A stretch of DNA of 64,000 nucleotides from Halonotius pteroides (GTDB lineage Archaea; Halobacteriota; Halobacteria; Halobacteriales; Haloferacaceae): positions 1 to 64,000 of the forward strand of contig NZ_QMDW01000003.1 in NCBI RefSeq assembly GCF_003605635.1. Direction: 5' to 3'. This document shows, in pieces, positions 29,557 through 42,643 of this stretch. Each line of letters begins with the position of its first letter. Positions within the stretch are counted from its first letter, which is position 1. Under the pieces are notes generated by a model. That model made no database searches, had not been told where the DNA came from, and worked only from the letters and a program-made list of their open reading frames with translations. The position numbers and the translations under genes were made by a program.

Positions 29557-30147
29557 ATGTTCAGCACCAACGAGCGCGGTCAGGTCGGGATAGGAACACT
29601 TATCGTTTTTATAGCGATGGTGCTCGTTGCTGCGATCGCCTCCGGTGTGCTAATTACGACCGCCGGACAGCTTCAGTCTCAGGCCTCTCAGACCGGTGAG
29701 GAAACCACCTCACAGGTCAGTGACATAGTCCGGATCACAGACATTATCGGCACCGCCAACGCCAGCGGTGGAACGACCGAGATCGAAACCCTCGAAGCGA
29801 AGATCCGGCTCGCTTCGGGTGCTGATTCCGTTGAGATGAACGAAACCTCCTATACGATCGCGACGATGGGAGATACGAACGCCGCGACGGTTGTCTCCGG
29901 AAACGAAAGCACCACCGGTATCAGCTACAATCAGTCACAAGGGTTAGCCGCTGGTGAAACAACGCTGACAGACCAAGATCAAGTTATTATCGCAAAGTTT
30001 GACCTCACAAACCTCTCTGAGGTAAATCCCCTTGCTGCTGACGACCGTGTCTCGATTAGCATTGAATCTCCGGCCGGCGGTCGGACTGTTATCGAGAAAC
30101 AGGCACCTGGACAGCTGAATGATGGGGGCTCCTACGTACTCAGATAA
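29557..30147 (+). CDS. Archaellin (archaeal flagellin)
   Basis: Structural protein of the archaellum filament, 196 residues. A class III signal peptide ends in ERGQVGIG; the prepilin peptidase (PibD/ArlK) would cut between Gly8 and Gln9. The hydrophobic assembly helix follows ([20 protein letters not shown]). The C-terminal beta domain contains several N-glycosylation sequons (NAS, NET, NES, NQS, NLS), common in haloarchaeal archaellins. No other arl/fla gene is in the window, so it is an orphan copy beside a RecJ-like gene and rqcH. It may be an alternative filament subunit. ATG at 29557 chosen by the signal peptide. Confidence 0.92.
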
Positions 30148-37233: not shown

Positions 37234-38766
37234 TCACCAATCGCGGAAGTCGCCGTCGATCAGCGTCCGAGATTGGTGTTCGACATACGCCCGCTGCATC
37301 CCGTGAACCGCCTCATCGAACGCCGCACCCTCGTTGAGCCGCTGTCGCACCTGTTCGCGTTTCCAGCCGGCGGGCGTCAGTTCGTTGTCGACGCGCCACA
37401 GCAGCGGTTGGAGGTAGGCATCGACCGCCCCGTCGTCGAGGCCGACCGCGCGCAGCCCCTCGGCAGCATGATCCAAGAGGTCGGTGATCGCGGCGGTGCT
37501 GTCGCTCGTTTCGGTGCCATCGGCGAGGATCCACTCGATGTCGGCTTCAAGCCCGTTGCGCATCGCGGCGTAGAAATTGTCGCGGGCGGCGTCCCACGGA
37601 AGATCGCCGACCGGGTGCTCGGTGCGGGTGAGGCCCTCCATCGCGCCGGCAAACGCGACTGTTAGCGCCATCGAATCTCGGACGGTCGGCTGAGCGGGCA
37701 GGGGCCGGAACTCGATTCTGGCGTTGGCCGCCGATCGGGAGGGGCCGCCGAACACCGGTCGCACCCACCGCCAGAAGGTGCCGTGCTTGCGGCGAAGTGT
37801 GGCAAAGTTGTCGTGGAAGCGGTCGCTGCGGTCGACATCCATCGGGACGATCACCTCGTCGTCGACGACGCGGCGAATCGCCGTCTCAAGGGTGTCGATA
37901 TCCTCGGGGAAGACCACCTTGTCGGTCTCGGTGGCGGTGTTGAGCACCGACTCGAAGACGGCGATCCGGTTTTCGTGCCAGCCCTCCGCGAGGATCGTCT
38001 CGGGGTCGATGCCGTCCTCATAGAGATCCGGCGGGAAGAACGGCGCGTTGACGCCGAGGGCGAGCAGCGGGCCGGCGAGTCGGAGCGCGTAGCTGAAACA
38101 TCGCGGGAGATCCATCGCCTGCTGCATCTGGTAGTGTGGCTGAATGGAGGTGATCAGGCTCTCGGGCATCAGCGTCTCGGCGGCGATATCGACATGGGGA
38201 GCCTCAACGCGGAACGTGTCCGCGAGATTCCCGTTGGCCATCGCGTGGTACCGGACGGCGTCGGTCATGTTGGTGGCGATCCGGACGCCGTCGTCGTTGA
38301 CGCTGTCGGTGAGATACTCGCGGGCGGTTTCACCGGTCGGTGGGATCGTCCACAGCCCGTCGCTGACCAGCCGCAGACCTTCGGGGGCCGTACAGTCGAG
38401 GGCGGCCGTGAGCTGGCTGCGAACCTCCGATTCGATGGCGCGAACGCCGTCAGCGTTGAACGGCTGGGGGGTGGCGGTCATCTCGGCGTTGTGCAAGCCG
38501 AGTTCCTTCTCGAAGCCGATCAACTCCAGCAGGCGGCGCGGGACACGTGCCAGCCCGTAGGCCCCGTCGTCGCCGGGATTCCAGCGGTTTTCCGAGACGG
38601 CGTAAAACTCGTATTCGAGGCCGAGAATCGACTGGTGGTTGTCGAAGGTGCCGTCGCTGAGCTCCGATAGCACGAAGTCGGCGTCGGTCGCGGCGTCCGT
38701 CCGGTACGATTCGGGATCGACGGCCAGCACGTCGCGGACGGCGGCGGCCAACGAGGACTCTGTCAT
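37234..38766 (-). CDS. GCS2-type glutamate-cysteine ligase family protein
   Basis: A 510-residue member of the GCS2 (YbdK-like) fold. LGLEYEFYAVSENRWNPGDD (about residues 50-68) is the ATP/Mg-binding acidic motif, and RIEFRPLPAQPTVRDSMAL near residue 355 is the conserved Arg-rich strand. Haloarchaea make gamma-glutamylcysteine as their main thiol, but their GshA is usually about 360 residues, so this longer paralogue may use another amine. The ATG at 38766 removes 12 unconserved residues of the longer frame. Substrate unknown. Confidence 0.75.
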   Translation of the reverse strand: MTESSLAAAVRDVLAVDPESYRTDAATDADFVLSELSDGTFDNHQSILGLEYEFYAVSENRWNPGDDGAYGLARVPRRLLELIGFEKELGLHNAEMTATPQPFNADGVRAIESEVRSQLTAALDCTAPEGLRLVSDGLWTIPPTGETAREYLTDSVNDDGVRIATNMTDAVRYHAMANGNLADTFRVEAPHVDIAAETLMPESLITSIQPHYQMQQAMDLPRCFSYALRLAGPLLALGVNAPFFPPDLYEDGIDPETILAEGWHENRIAVFESVLNTATETDKVVFPEDIDTLETAIRRVVDDEVIVPMDVDRSDRFHDNFATLRRKHGTFWRWVRPVFGGPSRSAANARIEFRPLPAQPTVRDSMALTVAFAGAMEGLTRTEHPVGDLPWDAARDNFYAAMRNGLEADIEWILADGTETSDSTAAITDLLDHAAEGLRAVGLDDGAVDAYLQPLLWRVDNELTPAGWKREQVRQRLNEGAAFDEAVHGMQRAYVEHQSRTLIDGDFRDW

Positions 38767-38869
38767 CGGGCGGGTGTGTGTGTTCAAGCCTCTTGAAGCC
38801 ACCTAGCTCGGATGGAGCTATCGCCACTGTTTGTGGTGTTCCCAGCGGTCGCTAACACCGTTGTCGGTC

Positions 38870-39016
38870 ATGGCGGTCGCTGGTCTGATCGTCATGGGTT
38901 TTATTATCGGCCCGCCTGAGTTAGTTCCGCTGGCCCGCCGGAGTCACCACCGGCTGCGCGCGTGGGTATGGGAGCACGGCCCCGACGGCGGCGACATGCT
39001 TCGCTCCGGGCATTGA
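38870..39016 (+). CDS. Possible tiny membrane protein
   Basis: A 48-residue frame: MAVAGLIVMGFIIGPPELVP (hydrophobic N-terminus), then an Arg/His-rich segment and an acidic end. It lies in the gap between two other genes and has no clear TATA box. It resembles other haloarchaeal mini-proteins but could be chance. Confidence 0.3.
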   Translation: MAVAGLIVMGFIIGPPELVPLARRSHHRLRAWVWEHGPDGGDMLRSGH

Positions 39017-39116
39017 TCGTATCGGTGACATACTATACATTCTGTGCCACACAAGATACCCGAAGCTGACGACGCACCGGCAAAGAATGAATCCCACAGC
39101 AACAGTACGTCACACC

Positions 39117-39422
39117 ATGTCGCGGCAGGTGAACATCGTCGTCGCCGGTGACGGGTCGGAGATTCACGACGAGCCCCACATTCGAGACCGGCGAATCACC
39201 ATGCGCTACATTCACGTGCTGGTTGAGGAGCGCGGGCTCGACGCGCAGACGGTTGCCGAGCGGTTCGATCTCACTGCCGCAGCGGTCTACCACGCCCTGG
39301 CGTACTATCACGACCATCCCGAGGAGATGCGGGCGGTCGAAGAAGCCCGTCGAGAGCGGCACGACGCCGCAGCGGACGACCCGAGAATCGTTACCGGGCC
39401 CGAGGATCTGCCGGACTCGTAG
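39117..39422 (+). CDS. DUF433 family protein (antitoxin-like)
   Basis: A 101-residue protein. GSEIHDEPHIRDRRITMRYI followed by VLVEERGLDAQTVAERFDL and a short helix-turn-helix-like AAVYHALAYYHDHPEEM is the DUF433 pattern, a VapB-type antitoxin-like DNA-binding family. ATG at 39117 aligns with the family start; an earlier ATG at 39087 exists. No PIN or RNase toxin adjoins it, so it is a solitary copy. Confidence 0.8.
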   Translation: MSRQVNIVVAGDGSEIHDEPHIRDRRITMRYIHVLVEERGLDAQTVAERFDLTAAAVYHALAYYHDHPEEMRAVEEARRERHDAAADDPRIVTGPEDLPDS

Positions 39423-39450
39423 GCATGCAGGTGTCGTTGCTGTCGGAGAA

Positions 39451-39466
39451 ACGACATGTTTTATAC
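39451..39466 (+). promoter_or_regulatory. Promoter of the lipobox gene
   Basis: GAGAAACGACATGTTTTATAC (from about 39447) has the same purine-rich GAAACG and TTTTATAC words as the archaellin promoter. TTTTATAC starts 78 nt before the ATG at 39537, against 77 nt for the archaellin. This implies a leader of about 50 nt in both. Confidence 0.45.
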
Positions 39467-39536
39467 AGAGATCTGCTTGGAATTTTCAACCAAGAATCAT
39501 ATTTTTAGGTTAGCAGACAATTGATCACATGTAACT

Positions 39537-40124
39537 ATGCTCACAAGACGAAAGCTGGTATCAGGTCTAACTGTGATTTCTCTTGTAGGTGTATCAGGCT
39601 GTACCCAAAACCAAGCGACACAGACGAGTACCGAAACAACTGCAACGACTGGTGCCAAAAGTACAACAACGGAAACGGATGAAGTAACAGCTGAAATCGA
39701 AAGGGGTGTTGAAATAAAGGGTCTAGTAGGAGCAGTCAACAATGATGGTGATAAAATACAAAATCTCGAAATAAAACTCGGGTTGGTATCGGGGTCTGAA
39801 CCTGTTAACCTATCCGAATTGATCTATACTATAGGATTACCTGAGGAATCGGTACTGATAAATGGCAATCCAGGCCAGACGGACGGACTGGATGTTCGTT
39901 GGGTAGAGGGCTTAGAACAAGATCCAATAGTTTTGAGCGACACAGAAGATCTGGTAGTAATTAATCTCGAATTATCAAACATAAGCCAAGTAGAACCTAT
40001 AAAAACCGATGTTAGTTTCACAATCTCTATCGATGTTCCAAACGGTAGTCTCTTCAAGGCCGCATTTCTCACGCCAAAGCAGGAAAAATTGGAAAAATCA
40101 GGAGAATACGTGTTTCATAATTAA
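39537..40124 (+). CDS. Lipobox protein with archaellin-like globular domain
   Basis: A 195-residue exported protein. Signal: MLTRRKLVSGLTVISLVGVS then the lipobox Cys (VSGC, about residue 22), with a TRRK twin-Arg-like start, so probably a Tat lipoprotein. A Thr-rich spacer follows. The body aligns with the archaellin of this window without large gaps. LEIKLGLVSGSEPVN and ELIYTI match [15 protein letters not shown] and TSYTI; VINLELSNISQVEPI and SFTISIDVPNG match [15 protein letters not shown] and [11 protein letters not shown]. The ends are GEYVFHN and GSYVLR. The class III signal and assembly helix are absent. The gene is much more AT-rich than its neighbours. Confidence 0.8.
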   Translation: MLTRRKLVSGLTVISLVGVSGCTQNQATQTSTETTATTGAKSTTTETDEVTAEIERGVEIKGLVGAVNNDGDKIQNLEIKLGLVSGSEPVNLSELIYTIGLPEESVLINGNPGQTDGLDVRWVEGLEQDPIVLSDTEDLVVINLELSNISQVEPIKTDVSFTISIDVPNGSLFKAAFLTPKQEKLEKSGEYVFHN

Positions 40125-40163
40125 ATCACCAATCAATTGTCATTCGATATTTATATCAGTGCT

Positions 40164-41453
40164 ATGTGTCCCGCAGAAGATCGACTCTTACACCCAACTC
40201 GGCGTCGAATCCTTCAGACAACAGGTGGCCTCACTGCACTGGGCGTCCTTGGAAACAGTGCATCATTGCCTGTCACTGCCGATCCCGGAACCGAGCAGTG
40301 GGCCTTCGAAACCAGTAATATTCGTTCGTCGCCGACAGTCGTAGATGGGACAGTTTTTGTCGGGAGTACCGACGACCACCTGTACGCCGTAGATGCGGCA
40401 ACGGGCGAGCAAGAGTGGGCCTTCGAGACCGACCGCTGGCAATCTGTCAACGCATCACCGACAGTGGTGGATGGAACAGTCTTCGTTGGGAGTCACGACC
40501 ACCATCTGTATGCAGTAGATGCGACAACGGGGGAAAAACAGTGGGCCGTCGAAACAGGTGATAAGCTTGGCTCGTCACCGACAGTCGTGGATGGGACAGT
40601 CTTTGTTGGGAGTTGGGACACCAATCTGTACGCGATAGATGCAGCAACGGGCGACCAGGAGTGGACCTTCGAAACCGACGATTGGATACAATCGTCGCCA
40701 ACAGTGGTAGATGGGACAGTTTTTGTTGGGGGTGGAGACAACTACCTGCACGCGGTAGATGCGACAACTGGTGAGCAAGAGTGGGTCTTCGAGACCGGCG
40801 ACTCGGTTTTCTCGTCACCGACAGTCGTCAATGGGACAGTCTTTGTCGGGAGTATCGATACCAATCTGTATGCAGTAGATGCGGCAACAGGCGATCAGGA
40901 GTGGATCTTTGAAACCGCCGACTCGGTTCTCTCCTCGCCGACAGTAGTAGATGGGACAGTTTTTGTTGGGAGTAATGACCACCATCTGTATGCGGTAAAT
41001 GCGAAAAAGGGCGATGAACAGTGGGCCGTCGAAACCGGAGAAGCGATTTACTCGTCGCCGACAGTGGCGGATGGGACGGTCTTTGTTGGGAGCATAGACA
41101 ATAATTTGTACGCGCTATCTGCGGAAACAGGCGAGGAACAGTGGGTCGTCGAAACTGGAAGTGCGGTTTTCTCGTCGCCGACGGTGGTAGATGGAACCGT
41201 CTTCGTCGGGAGTGCCGACGACAATCTCTATGTCCTTGACGCAGGTGTTGAGGGTTCGACCGAAGGCTCACGAGTACACTTGGGGACGCCCGGCCATCAC
41301 GGAGACTGGCAGTATGCGGATCAATCGACTACATATCGTGCTGAGTCGGAAGGTACTGATTCAGTTCCAGGGTTTGGAGTCGGGAGCGGAATCACCGCAA
41401 TCGGAGCGACAGGCTACCTGTTGAAGCGTTGTCTTAAACACGATTCTGAGTAA
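40164..41453 (+). CDS. Exported eight-repeat PQQ-type beta-propeller with PGF-CTERM-like tail
   Basis: About 429 residues. The N-terminus has a twin-arginine-like signal (TRRRILQTTGGLTALGVLG). Eight repeats of about 40 residues follow, each with SSPTVVDGTVFVG, a NLYAVDAATG-like strand and QEWxFET, as in BamB/PQQ propellers, enough for a closed eight-bladed ring. The C-terminus, VPGFGVGSGITAIG then a hydrophobic stretch and KRCLKHDSE, looks like a PGF-CTERM sorting signal for archaeosortase. No PQQ-dependent catalytic residues are evident, so it is probably a binding or scaffold protein. Start chosen at 40164; TATTTATATC at 40148-40157 is too close to serve it, so it may be read with the lipobox gene. 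Confidence 0.8.
   Translation: MCPAEDRLLHPTRRRILQTTGGLTALGVLGNSASLPVTADPGTEQWAFETSNIRSSPTVVDGTVFVGSTDDHLYAVDAATGEQEWAFETDRWQSVNASPTVVDGTVFVGSHDHHLYAVDATTGEKQWAVETGDKLGSSPTVVDGTVFVGSWDTNLYAIDAATGDQEWTFETDDWIQSSPTVVDGTVFVGGGDNYLHAVDATTGEQEWVFETGDSVFSSPTVVNGTVFVGSIDTNLYAVDAATGDQEWIFETADSVLSSPTVVDGTVFVGSNDHHLYAVNAKKGDEQWAVETGEAIYSSPTVADGTVFVGSIDNNLYALSAETGEEQWVVETGSAVFSSPTVVDGTVFVGSADDNLYVLDAGVEGSTEGSRVHLGTPGHHGDWQYADQSTTYRAESEGTDSVPGFGVGSGITAIGATGYLLKRCLKHDSE
40290..41250 (+). repeat. Eight tandem 120-nt DNA repeats in the propeller gene
   Basis: The core CCGACAGT-GTNGATGGGACAG-TTTTGT(T/C)GGGAGT recurs at about 120-nt spacing, near 40330, 40453, 40574, 40693, 40814, 40934, 41054 and 41174. Similarity is high at DNA level, not only in protein, indicating fairly recent duplication or homogenisation. 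It is not a CRISPR: there are no unique spacers and the unit is coding. Confidence 0.75.
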
Positions 41454-41569
41454 CAGACTTACGCACTGTATCCATTACAAATTGACTCATAAGGTAGCCG
41501 AGCAGTACGCTGTGTCATTGTAGCAGACAAAAGCGAGTCGCTGAAAAACAAAAAGCCGTACGTAGCCGT
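41454..41569 (-). terminator. T-rich end of the metE-like pair
   Basis: Downstream of the minus-strand methionine synthase gene the sequence reads GTACGGCTTTTTGTTTTTC on the minus strand (about 41543-41561), a typical archaeal oligo-T terminator. The rest of this gap between convergent genes holds nothing else recognised. Confidence 0.5.
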
Positions 41570-42643
41570 TTAGTCAGCCGTCGGCACCGGCGCCTCGATA
41601 TCGATCTCGCCGTTATCGAGTTCGGCTTCGACCTGCCGAGTCGCCTCGACCATGTTTGCCATCTTGCCGTAGGCGACATCCCGCGGGAGGAGTTTCAGGC
41701 CGCAGTCGGGGCTGATCGTGAGCCGTTCCGGCGGCACGACCTTCAGACCCTGTTTGATGTTTGCTTTGATCTCGTCGACGGGTTCGACCTCGGCGTTGTG
41801 CACGTCGACAACGCCGAGGGCGAGATCCGGGACAAACTCCGGGTCGGTGAACACGTCGATCTGCTCGTAGTTGCCGTTGCAGAGTTCGAGATCGACCTCG
41901 TCGACCGGGTAGTCGTTGAGTTCGGGGTAGATCCGCGAGTAGTCGCCGTAACAGACGTGCAGGCCGACCCGCACGTCCTCGTCGATCCCGCTGACGATCC
42001 GGTCGAGGGCTTCGCCGACGATGGCGTGGTCGTCCGGCGTCGTCGCGAGGGCGGGCTCGTCGATCTGGATGTATCTCGCGCCGGCGTCGACCAGCTGTTC
42101 GACCTCTGTGTTGACAAGCTCAGCGAGCCCGTAGATGAGCTCCTCCTGTGAGTCGTATGCCTCATTGAACGCCCAGCAGCCGAGGGTGTACGGGCCGGTG
42201 ATCGGCACCTTGACCGGCTTGCTGGCGACGTTGTTCGTGAACTCGAACTCGTCGACGAGCCACGGCTCGTCGTAGCCGACCTCGGCGGAGACGGAGGGTT
42301 TGTCGAAGTAGTTGTGGCCCCAGACCTTGACCGGGCCGTTGAACTCGTAGCCCTCAATCCGCTCGGCGAAGAACTCGACCATCTCGTTGCGCCGAACTTC
42401 GCCGTCGACGACCGTGTCGAGCCCGCAGCGTTCGTGTTCGTTGGTGATAACGCGGGCGGCGTCGTCGTGGGCTTCTTGGAGGTTCTCTTCGTCGAACTTC
42501 GAGTCGGGGTCATCGACGAGGTCGTCAACCCGGTTCAGCCACTTCGGCTTGGCGTAGGAGCCAACGACGGTCGTCAGCAGGAAATGATCGTTGGGGTGGT
42601 CGTCGGGGTGGAACTGCGCGCGGTTGTCGGCGGGGCGGCTCAT
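41570..42643 (-). CDS. Cobalamin-independent methionine synthase, C-terminal-type protein
   Basis: A 357-residue MetE-like protein that would transfer a methyl group to homocysteine. It carries the zinc ligands of the UROD/MetE barrel: LHVCYGDYSRIYP (His-x-Cys), a Glu in the DVHNAEVEPVDEI strand and a Cys in ISPDCGLKLLP. PITGPYTLGCWAFNEAYDSQ is the conserved substrate loop. It is the second gene of a pair; its ATG overlaps the stop of the upstream paralogue by four bases. Haloarchaea usually have such a two-gene arrangement. Confidence 0.9.
   Translation of the reverse strand: MSRPADNRAQFHPDDHPNDHFLLTTVVGSYAKPKWLNRVDDLVDDPDSKFDEENLQEAHDDAARVITNEHERCGLDTVVDGEVRRNEMVEFFAERIEGYEFNGPVKVWGHNYFDKPSVSAEVGYDEPWLVDEFEFTNNVASKPVKVPITGPYTLGCWAFNEAYDSQEELIYGLAELVNTEVEQLVDAGARYIQIDEPALATTPDDHAIVGEALDRIVSGIDEDVRVGLHVCYGDYSRIYPELNDYPVDEVDLELCNGNYEQIDVFTDPEFVPDLALGVVDVHNAEVEPVDEIKANIKQGLKVVPPERLTISPDCGLKLLPRDVAYGKMANMVEATRQVEAELDNGEIDIEAPVPTAD

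Follow-up and report, generated by a model that had tools for sequence, protein, structure and literature searches.

What is a protein that begins as a lipoprotein and continues as a subunit of the archaellum filament, and what might it do at the cell surface? This question is raised by an open reading frame of 195 residues (39537-40124, + strand) in Halonotius pteroides, located on contig C50 of the 3.0-Mb draft genome (G000) and within the stretch of 64,000 nucleotides that we analyzed, which we refer to as the window. The features of the encoded protein, which we call the window lipoprotein, and of its surroundings are collected in Table 1.

Table 1. Features in the window, with their positions and the basis on which each was assigned
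Feature	Position	Strand	Basis or remark
Ordinary archaellin with class III signal	29557..30147	+	PF01917 E 4.4e-27; conserved position in Halonotius; not linked to the lipoprotein gene
Gene for a 522-residue protein	37234-38802		Syntenic in four other Halonotius genomes; no Pfam match
DUF433 protein gene	39087..39422	+	Same position in two sister species
Possible TATA box TATTTTTA, 30 bases 5′ of the start codon	39500..39507	+	Suggested by the sequence
Tat-type lipoprotein signal peptide, residues 1-21 (MLTRRKLVSGLTVISLVGVSG)	39537..39599	+	Twin arginine, then hydrophobic run, V-S-G-C lipobox
Predicted lipidated Cys22	39600..39602	+	Residue just after the predicted cleavage site
Thr/Ser/Gln-rich linker, residues 23-45	39603..39671	+	Translation; model pLDDT <50 over residues 1-54
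Archaellin head domain (beta-sandwich), residues 46-195	39672..40121	+	Homology and predicted fold
PQQ-type beta-propeller protein, predicted to be Tat-exported	40164..41453	+	Weak PGF-CTERM-like tail, 19.5 bits against a cut-off of 24.5
MetE-like gene	41570-42643		Syntenic in four other Halonotius genomes

An archaellin head behind a lipoprotein signal

Direct reading of the translation identified the Tat lipoprotein pattern MLTRRKLVSGLTVISLVGVSGC (TRRK...VSG before C22) at the start of the window lipoprotein, in agreement with an earlier note on this DNA, which had proposed that a TRRK-lipobox (VSGC) signal stands in place of the class III signal and the filament helix. No class III signal motif was seen in the window lipoprotein when its sequence was read, and neither TIGR02537 nor PF01917 matched; alignments with archaellins demonstrated that the N-terminal hydrophobic assembly helix is also absent. 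Lipoboxes and membrane helices were called by eye from translations. The open frame is intact and, with 199 codons at 42% GC, longer than 173, the 99th percentile for the longest frame of 2-kb random sequences with the same dinucleotides, and the base pattern of the gene is of the coding type (GC1 54%, GC2 38%, GC3 34%). The protein contains three N-glycosylation sequons, two of which (N91-L-S and N148-I-S) match sequon places of related archaellins.

Using phmmer, we observe that the window lipoprotein matches the archaellin at 29557 with 55.6 bits (E 1.2e-18). The five motif pairs that had been noted previously between these two proteins all fall in a single collinear alignment, which runs from ETDEVTAEIERGVEIKGLVG (archaellin QTGEETTAEVSDVVQIGEVVG) to EYV (SYV/SYI). 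A profile made from Halonotius archaellin heads and one head from another genus of the family, with the window lipoprotein left out, was searched against the six-frame translation of the window, where it picked out two proteins, the window lipoprotein at 91.2 bits (E 4.2e-27) and the archaellin at 29557 at 181 bits. Since the top score among 500 shuffled copies on this profile was 8.9 bits, chance is excluded as the source of the resemblance and, as judged by sequence comparison, the head of the window lipoprotein is homologous to archaellins. Searching the genome of H. pteroides itself with the window lipoprotein returned ten archaellin-encoding places (E 5e-16 to 5e-8), and the comparison with archaellins of sister species gave E 4e-20, with ~31% identity across residues 46-182.

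One part of the check that had been proposed for this protein, a search with the Pfam model PF01917 (Arch_flagellin), returned no match, and a search of NCBIfam gave only a faint flagellin match (E 1.7e-4). We regard the PF01917 result as a technical failure in the face of certain homology, explained by the missing class III signal and assembly helix together with the divergence of the head.

When 15 aligned Halonotius proteins were supplied, AlphaFold2 predicted nine strands over residues 58-193, with pLDDT mostly 62-88 in this block and a pTM of 0.60. When this guided model was compared with the PDB using Foldseek, ranks 1-13 were all archaellins, the best being 9eq7 from Halobacterium salinarum (E 1.3e-8, probability 1.00), and they included archaellins of Methanocaldococcus, Methanococcus, Pyrococcus and others, with structures of ArlG/FlaG and ArlF/FlaF coming after them at lower significance. 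The model made without relatives had a pLDDT of 39.8, and Foldseek placed no archaellin on top for this low-confidence model, a result that speaks neither for nor against the fold. Because the single-sequence model is poor, the claim of a shared fold leans on homology and on the model guided by relatives, which support an archaellin-type beta-sandwich in the window lipoprotein. The central proposal of the earlier note, a lipoprotein whose body has the archaellin fold, is borne out by the sequence homology and by the first 13 Foldseek ranks, obtained with a model guided by archaellin relatives. Homology and structure prediction together show an archaellin head that starts where the assembly helix of archaellins ends and runs to the C-terminus, preceded by a Thr-rich linker and, before this, a Tat lipoprotein signal.

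Descent and genomic setting

Phylogenetic analysis joined the window lipoprotein, whose branch is very long, with the archaellins of Halonotius and apart from those of other haloarchaea (support 99/93), and the data are compatible both with a position nested within the Halonotius archaellins and with a position sister to them (p-AU 0.114). A second tree, in which the heads of the fusion proteins described below were included, placed a lipoprotein from genome G203 beside the window lipoprotein, with branch lengths of 10 and 5; we treat this pairing as long-branch attraction, since the G203 head shares 52-54% identity with the archaellins found in its lineage.

Both ArlF and ArlG arose by duplication of archaellin and were turned into static envelope (stator) parts, with ArlF binding the S-layer (PMC8667602, PMC12024892). 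The window lipoprotein has no sequence similarity to the ArlG or ArlF of its own genome (-0.1 and -0.8 bits, respectively), which rules out descent from them by sequence, and the ArlF/ArlG profile NF052591 did not match it. These comparisons lead us to conclude that the window lipoprotein descends from archaellin itself, and from neither ArlF nor ArlG. The earlier interpretation is retained for the archaellin fold on a lipoprotein anchor and corrected for the ancestry; its further suggestion, a partner or decoy of the filament, is a hypothesis. Intact genes for ArlF and ArlG are present in the same genome (G000:C39:42314-43175), with the gene under study located on C50 and outside the arl cluster, and since these two proteins are available elsewhere in the genome, the window lipoprotein is not replacing a missing stator protein.

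The genome of H. pteroides contains ten full-length archaellin genes and one truncated copy, distributed over contigs C20, C35, C39, C50 and C93 and some of them in tandem, which is an unusually large number of paralogues. The truncated copy (G000:C39:33754-34161; L122 about 885-1364) lies inside an archaellin array and lacks the 5′ part, which is replaced by the end of an apparent insertion-sequence transposase gene; from its sequence, it looks like an archaellin truncated by an insertion. Archaellum genes are reported for all Halonotius genomes examined, with H. terrestris described as motile and H. roseus as non-motile (PMC6719526).

Examination of the region surrounding the lipoprotein gene demonstrated a variable spot (window 38803-41569), extending from the gene for the 522-residue protein to the metE-like gene, whose content differs in each Halonotius genome compared. 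The gene itself has 42% GC and a GC3 of 34%, compared with 63-66% and ~85% in the flanking core genes, and the archaellins measured have 54-59% GC. We found no orthologue in 4 further Halonotius genomes or in ~390 genomes of other haloarchaea, and the protein, used as query against the GTDB genome set, viral contigs, phages and plasmids, brought up nothing relevant; five weak matches to phage tail fibres (E 0.6) were rejected as chance. Scanning viral contigs with the head alignment likewise gave nothing relevant, and scanning genomes with it returned only Halonotius archaellins. Based on its AT-rich composition, its location in a variable spot and its presence in G000 only, we class the gene as accessory DNA, which was probably acquired or is evolving fast. 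Elsewhere, the cargo of this spot is often AT-rich and includes PAS histidine kinases, small membrane proteins, and DUF433 with a small partner gene. A functional tie to the neighboring PQQ-type propeller was set aside, as propellers of this family are common in haloarchaea.

Filament-subunit parts on other anchors

To find archaellin heads that lack the helix, we searched one set of 87 haloarchaeal genomes with both a full-length archaellin profile and a head-only profile, and read the N-termini at the places that the head-only profile alone had found. One lipoprotein (SRRRLLASGVGLLAIAASGC), encoded at G203:C1:1611196-1612113 (L128 959-2116; L135), contains an NTF2-like domain followed by an archaellin head. 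This head covers positions 30-160 of PF01917 (E 3.3e-9, above the gathering score) and is 52% identical to one archaellin of its own genome; the NTF2-like domain resembles NF051431 (E 4e-6, under its cut-off). Further anchored heads were identified by searching 392 genomes with this protein. A second lipoprotein (G316:C1:28784-30400, minus strand; L169, L178) consists of a lipobox, a stalk domain of ~300 residues, the end of an assembly helix and an archaellin head, which matches PF01917 over 22-161 (E 8.6e-17) and is 56-57% identical to archaellins of the same genome. Other proteins carry the head behind a membrane helix: in the one on contig C23 of G263, a zinc ribbon, a membrane helix and an NTF2-like domain precede the archaellin head (PF01917 26-161, E 1.8e-11), and in those on C21 of G263 and C1 of G259 the head follows a membrane helix and a relative of the G316 stalk domain; the head on C21 of G263 scores below the PF01917 cut-off (E 2e-5).

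In addition to the window lipoprotein, the anchored archaellin heads thus comprise at least two lipoproteins (G203 and G316) and at least three membrane-anchored proteins (two in G263 and one in G259), counts drawn from the top-scoring candidates of each genome. Given that their heads are 52% and 56-57% identical to their own archaellins, the G203 and G316 fusions arose separately within their own lineages, and it is likely that the window lipoprotein and the other anchored heads have separate origins. Membrane-anchored proteins with a C-terminal archaellin head are seen in L165 (ORF from 4134), L167 (minus strand, from 5328) and L168 (minus strand, from 4347), where the N-terminal parts are cytoplasmic and contain a zinc ribbon in L165 and another domain in L167.

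The G316 stalk domain is also found alone, and in several genera a segment of type IV pilin forms its end (Pilin_N, PF07790; E 6e-9, 6e-12 and 4e-8). A pilin-like tail on this type of stalk was seen in L182, L208, L209, L210, L211, L213 and L216; PF07790 is confirmed in L208, L210 and L213, with L182 falling just under the cut-off. At the level of domain matches, parts of filament subunits on lipoprotein stalks are a recurrent arrangement in haloarchaea. Papers describing anchored archaellin or pilin proteins were not found in the open-access literature, a body that leaves most subscription journals outside.

Proposed role, alternatives and comparison with known systems

Proteins with a Tat signal and a lipobox are exported in the folded state, cleaved at the cysteine and anchored by lipid on the outside, and the polymerisation of archaellin requires class III processing and the archaellin's own helix. 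Our best explanation, in which we place about even confidence, is that the window lipoprotein is an archaellin-derived surface lipoprotein, i.e., a lipid-anchored, unassembled head with a proposed role as a tether or modulator. By the known pathways, the protein would be exported through Tat and then cleaved before Cys22, whose lipid would anchor it on the outer side of the membrane, with a flexible and possibly glycosylated linker carrying the head within the S-layer space or just beyond it. A static, unassembled head is to be expected because the class III signal and the assembly helix are missing; such a protein would not be processed by prepilin peptidase and would not enter the filament by the known route. 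Through lateral contacts of the archaellin type, the head may bind to the base of an archaellum or of a pilus, or to partners that the archaellum has in the envelope.

The role itself, in which the lipid-anchored protein would act next to the ArlF/ArlG stator as a tether or modulator, is put forward tentatively and by analogy. ArlF and ArlG provide the precedent, as archaellin paralogues made into static envelope parts, and we count in its favor that the host carries archaellins, ArlF and ArlG. Against it we count that no orthologue was found, that the gene is distant from the arl cluster and AT-rich, and that it occupies a variable genomic spot; the head has also diverged strongly, as seen in its very long branch, and may have lost its contact surfaces. 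We rate this role highest, with exaptation to an unrelated surface role almost as likely, and with a decoy or a functionless chimera less likely.

Exaptation would mean that a stable, glycosylatable beta-sandwich was placed on a lipoprotein anchor and serves as an adhesin, a binding protein or an envelope filler with no link to the filament, which we consider rather unlikely when taken on its own. The variety of the other fusions is consistent with it, as archaellin heads are joined to dissimilar partners (an NTF2-like domain, a zinc ribbon with a membrane helix, and a common lipoprotein domain) and the G316-type stalk also bears pilin parts, as in ordinary domain shuffling; the position of the lipoprotein gene, far from the arl cluster and adjoining a PQQ propeller, points the same way. 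However, the donors are repeatedly filament subunits, either archaellin or pilin, although this recurrence comes from a search that covered only archaellin-like and pilin-like heads and is hence biased, and the heads that can be traced are close to archaellins of their own lineage, which fits contact with the cell's own filament better.

We think it improbable that the window lipoprotein is a decoy, i.e., that it presents a copy of the filament surface fixed to the cell, on which viruses or competitors that bind the archaellum are sequestered. A species-specific, AT-rich gene in a variable spot is what would be expected of accessory genes for defence or surface variation, and the exposed surface of the head is retained with the assembly parts gone, but the locus has no defence neighborhood, we found in the literature searched no haloarchaeal virus that binds the archaellum, and a head sharing only ~30% identity with the archaellins of the same cell would be a poor mimic. 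A non-functional chimera, or a newly acquired gene drifting without consequence, is similarly improbable: occurrence in a single species, the very long branch and a GC3 of 34% against ~85% in neighboring core genes suggest it, but the frame is intact with a good signal and lipobox and a coding-type base pattern, the head is complete from first to last strand, and analogous chimeras exist in other genera.

We suggest, with reserve, that haloarchaea have an undescribed class of surface proteins in which parts of archaellum or type IV pilus subunits were moved repeatedly and independently from their assembly helix onto stalks anchored by lipid or in the membrane, and that these proteins serve in holding, capping or regulating the filaments of the same cell. 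How the envelope holds the archaellum is still an open question (PMC12024892). The known descendants of archaellin outside the filament are ArlF and ArlG, and a lipid-anchored head would represent another exit from the filament. As such heads recur in other haloarchaea, and as lipoproteins with a shared stalk bear pilin parts, it becomes testable whether spare filament heads serve as tethers, caps or decoys. Annotation by PF01917 alone overlooks proteins such as the window lipoprotein.

Compared with the archaellins of Halonotius (ArlA/ArlB; PF01917), the window lipoprotein has a head that is homologous from the first strand to the C-terminus (27-34% identity), the same predicted fold and two sequons in corresponding places, whereas the class III signal and the assembly helix are theirs, and a Tat lipobox and a Thr-rich linker stand in the window lipoprotein, which falls outside the Pfam model. 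With ArlF and ArlG it shares, by prediction, an archaellin-type beta-sandwich, which in the window lipoprotein would likewise stand outside the filament, to judge from the missing helix; these two proteins have an N-terminal helix as anchor and are encoded in the arl cluster, and the window lipoprotein has a predicted lipid anchor and is encoded at a distant locus. Haloarchaeal Tat lipoproteins resemble it in the twin arginine, the lipobox and the Thr-rich spacer behind the cysteine, and differ in that the domain attached in the window lipoprotein derives from a filament subunit. The proteins of G203, G316, G263 and G259, and the pilin-bearing proteins of L182, L208, L210 and L213, likewise have a lipobox or a membrane helix followed by an archaellin head or a pilin segment, but these contain an additional NTF2-like domain or a stalk domain of ~300 residues and often the end of the filament helix, in contrast to the window lipoprotein, which is the minimal form.
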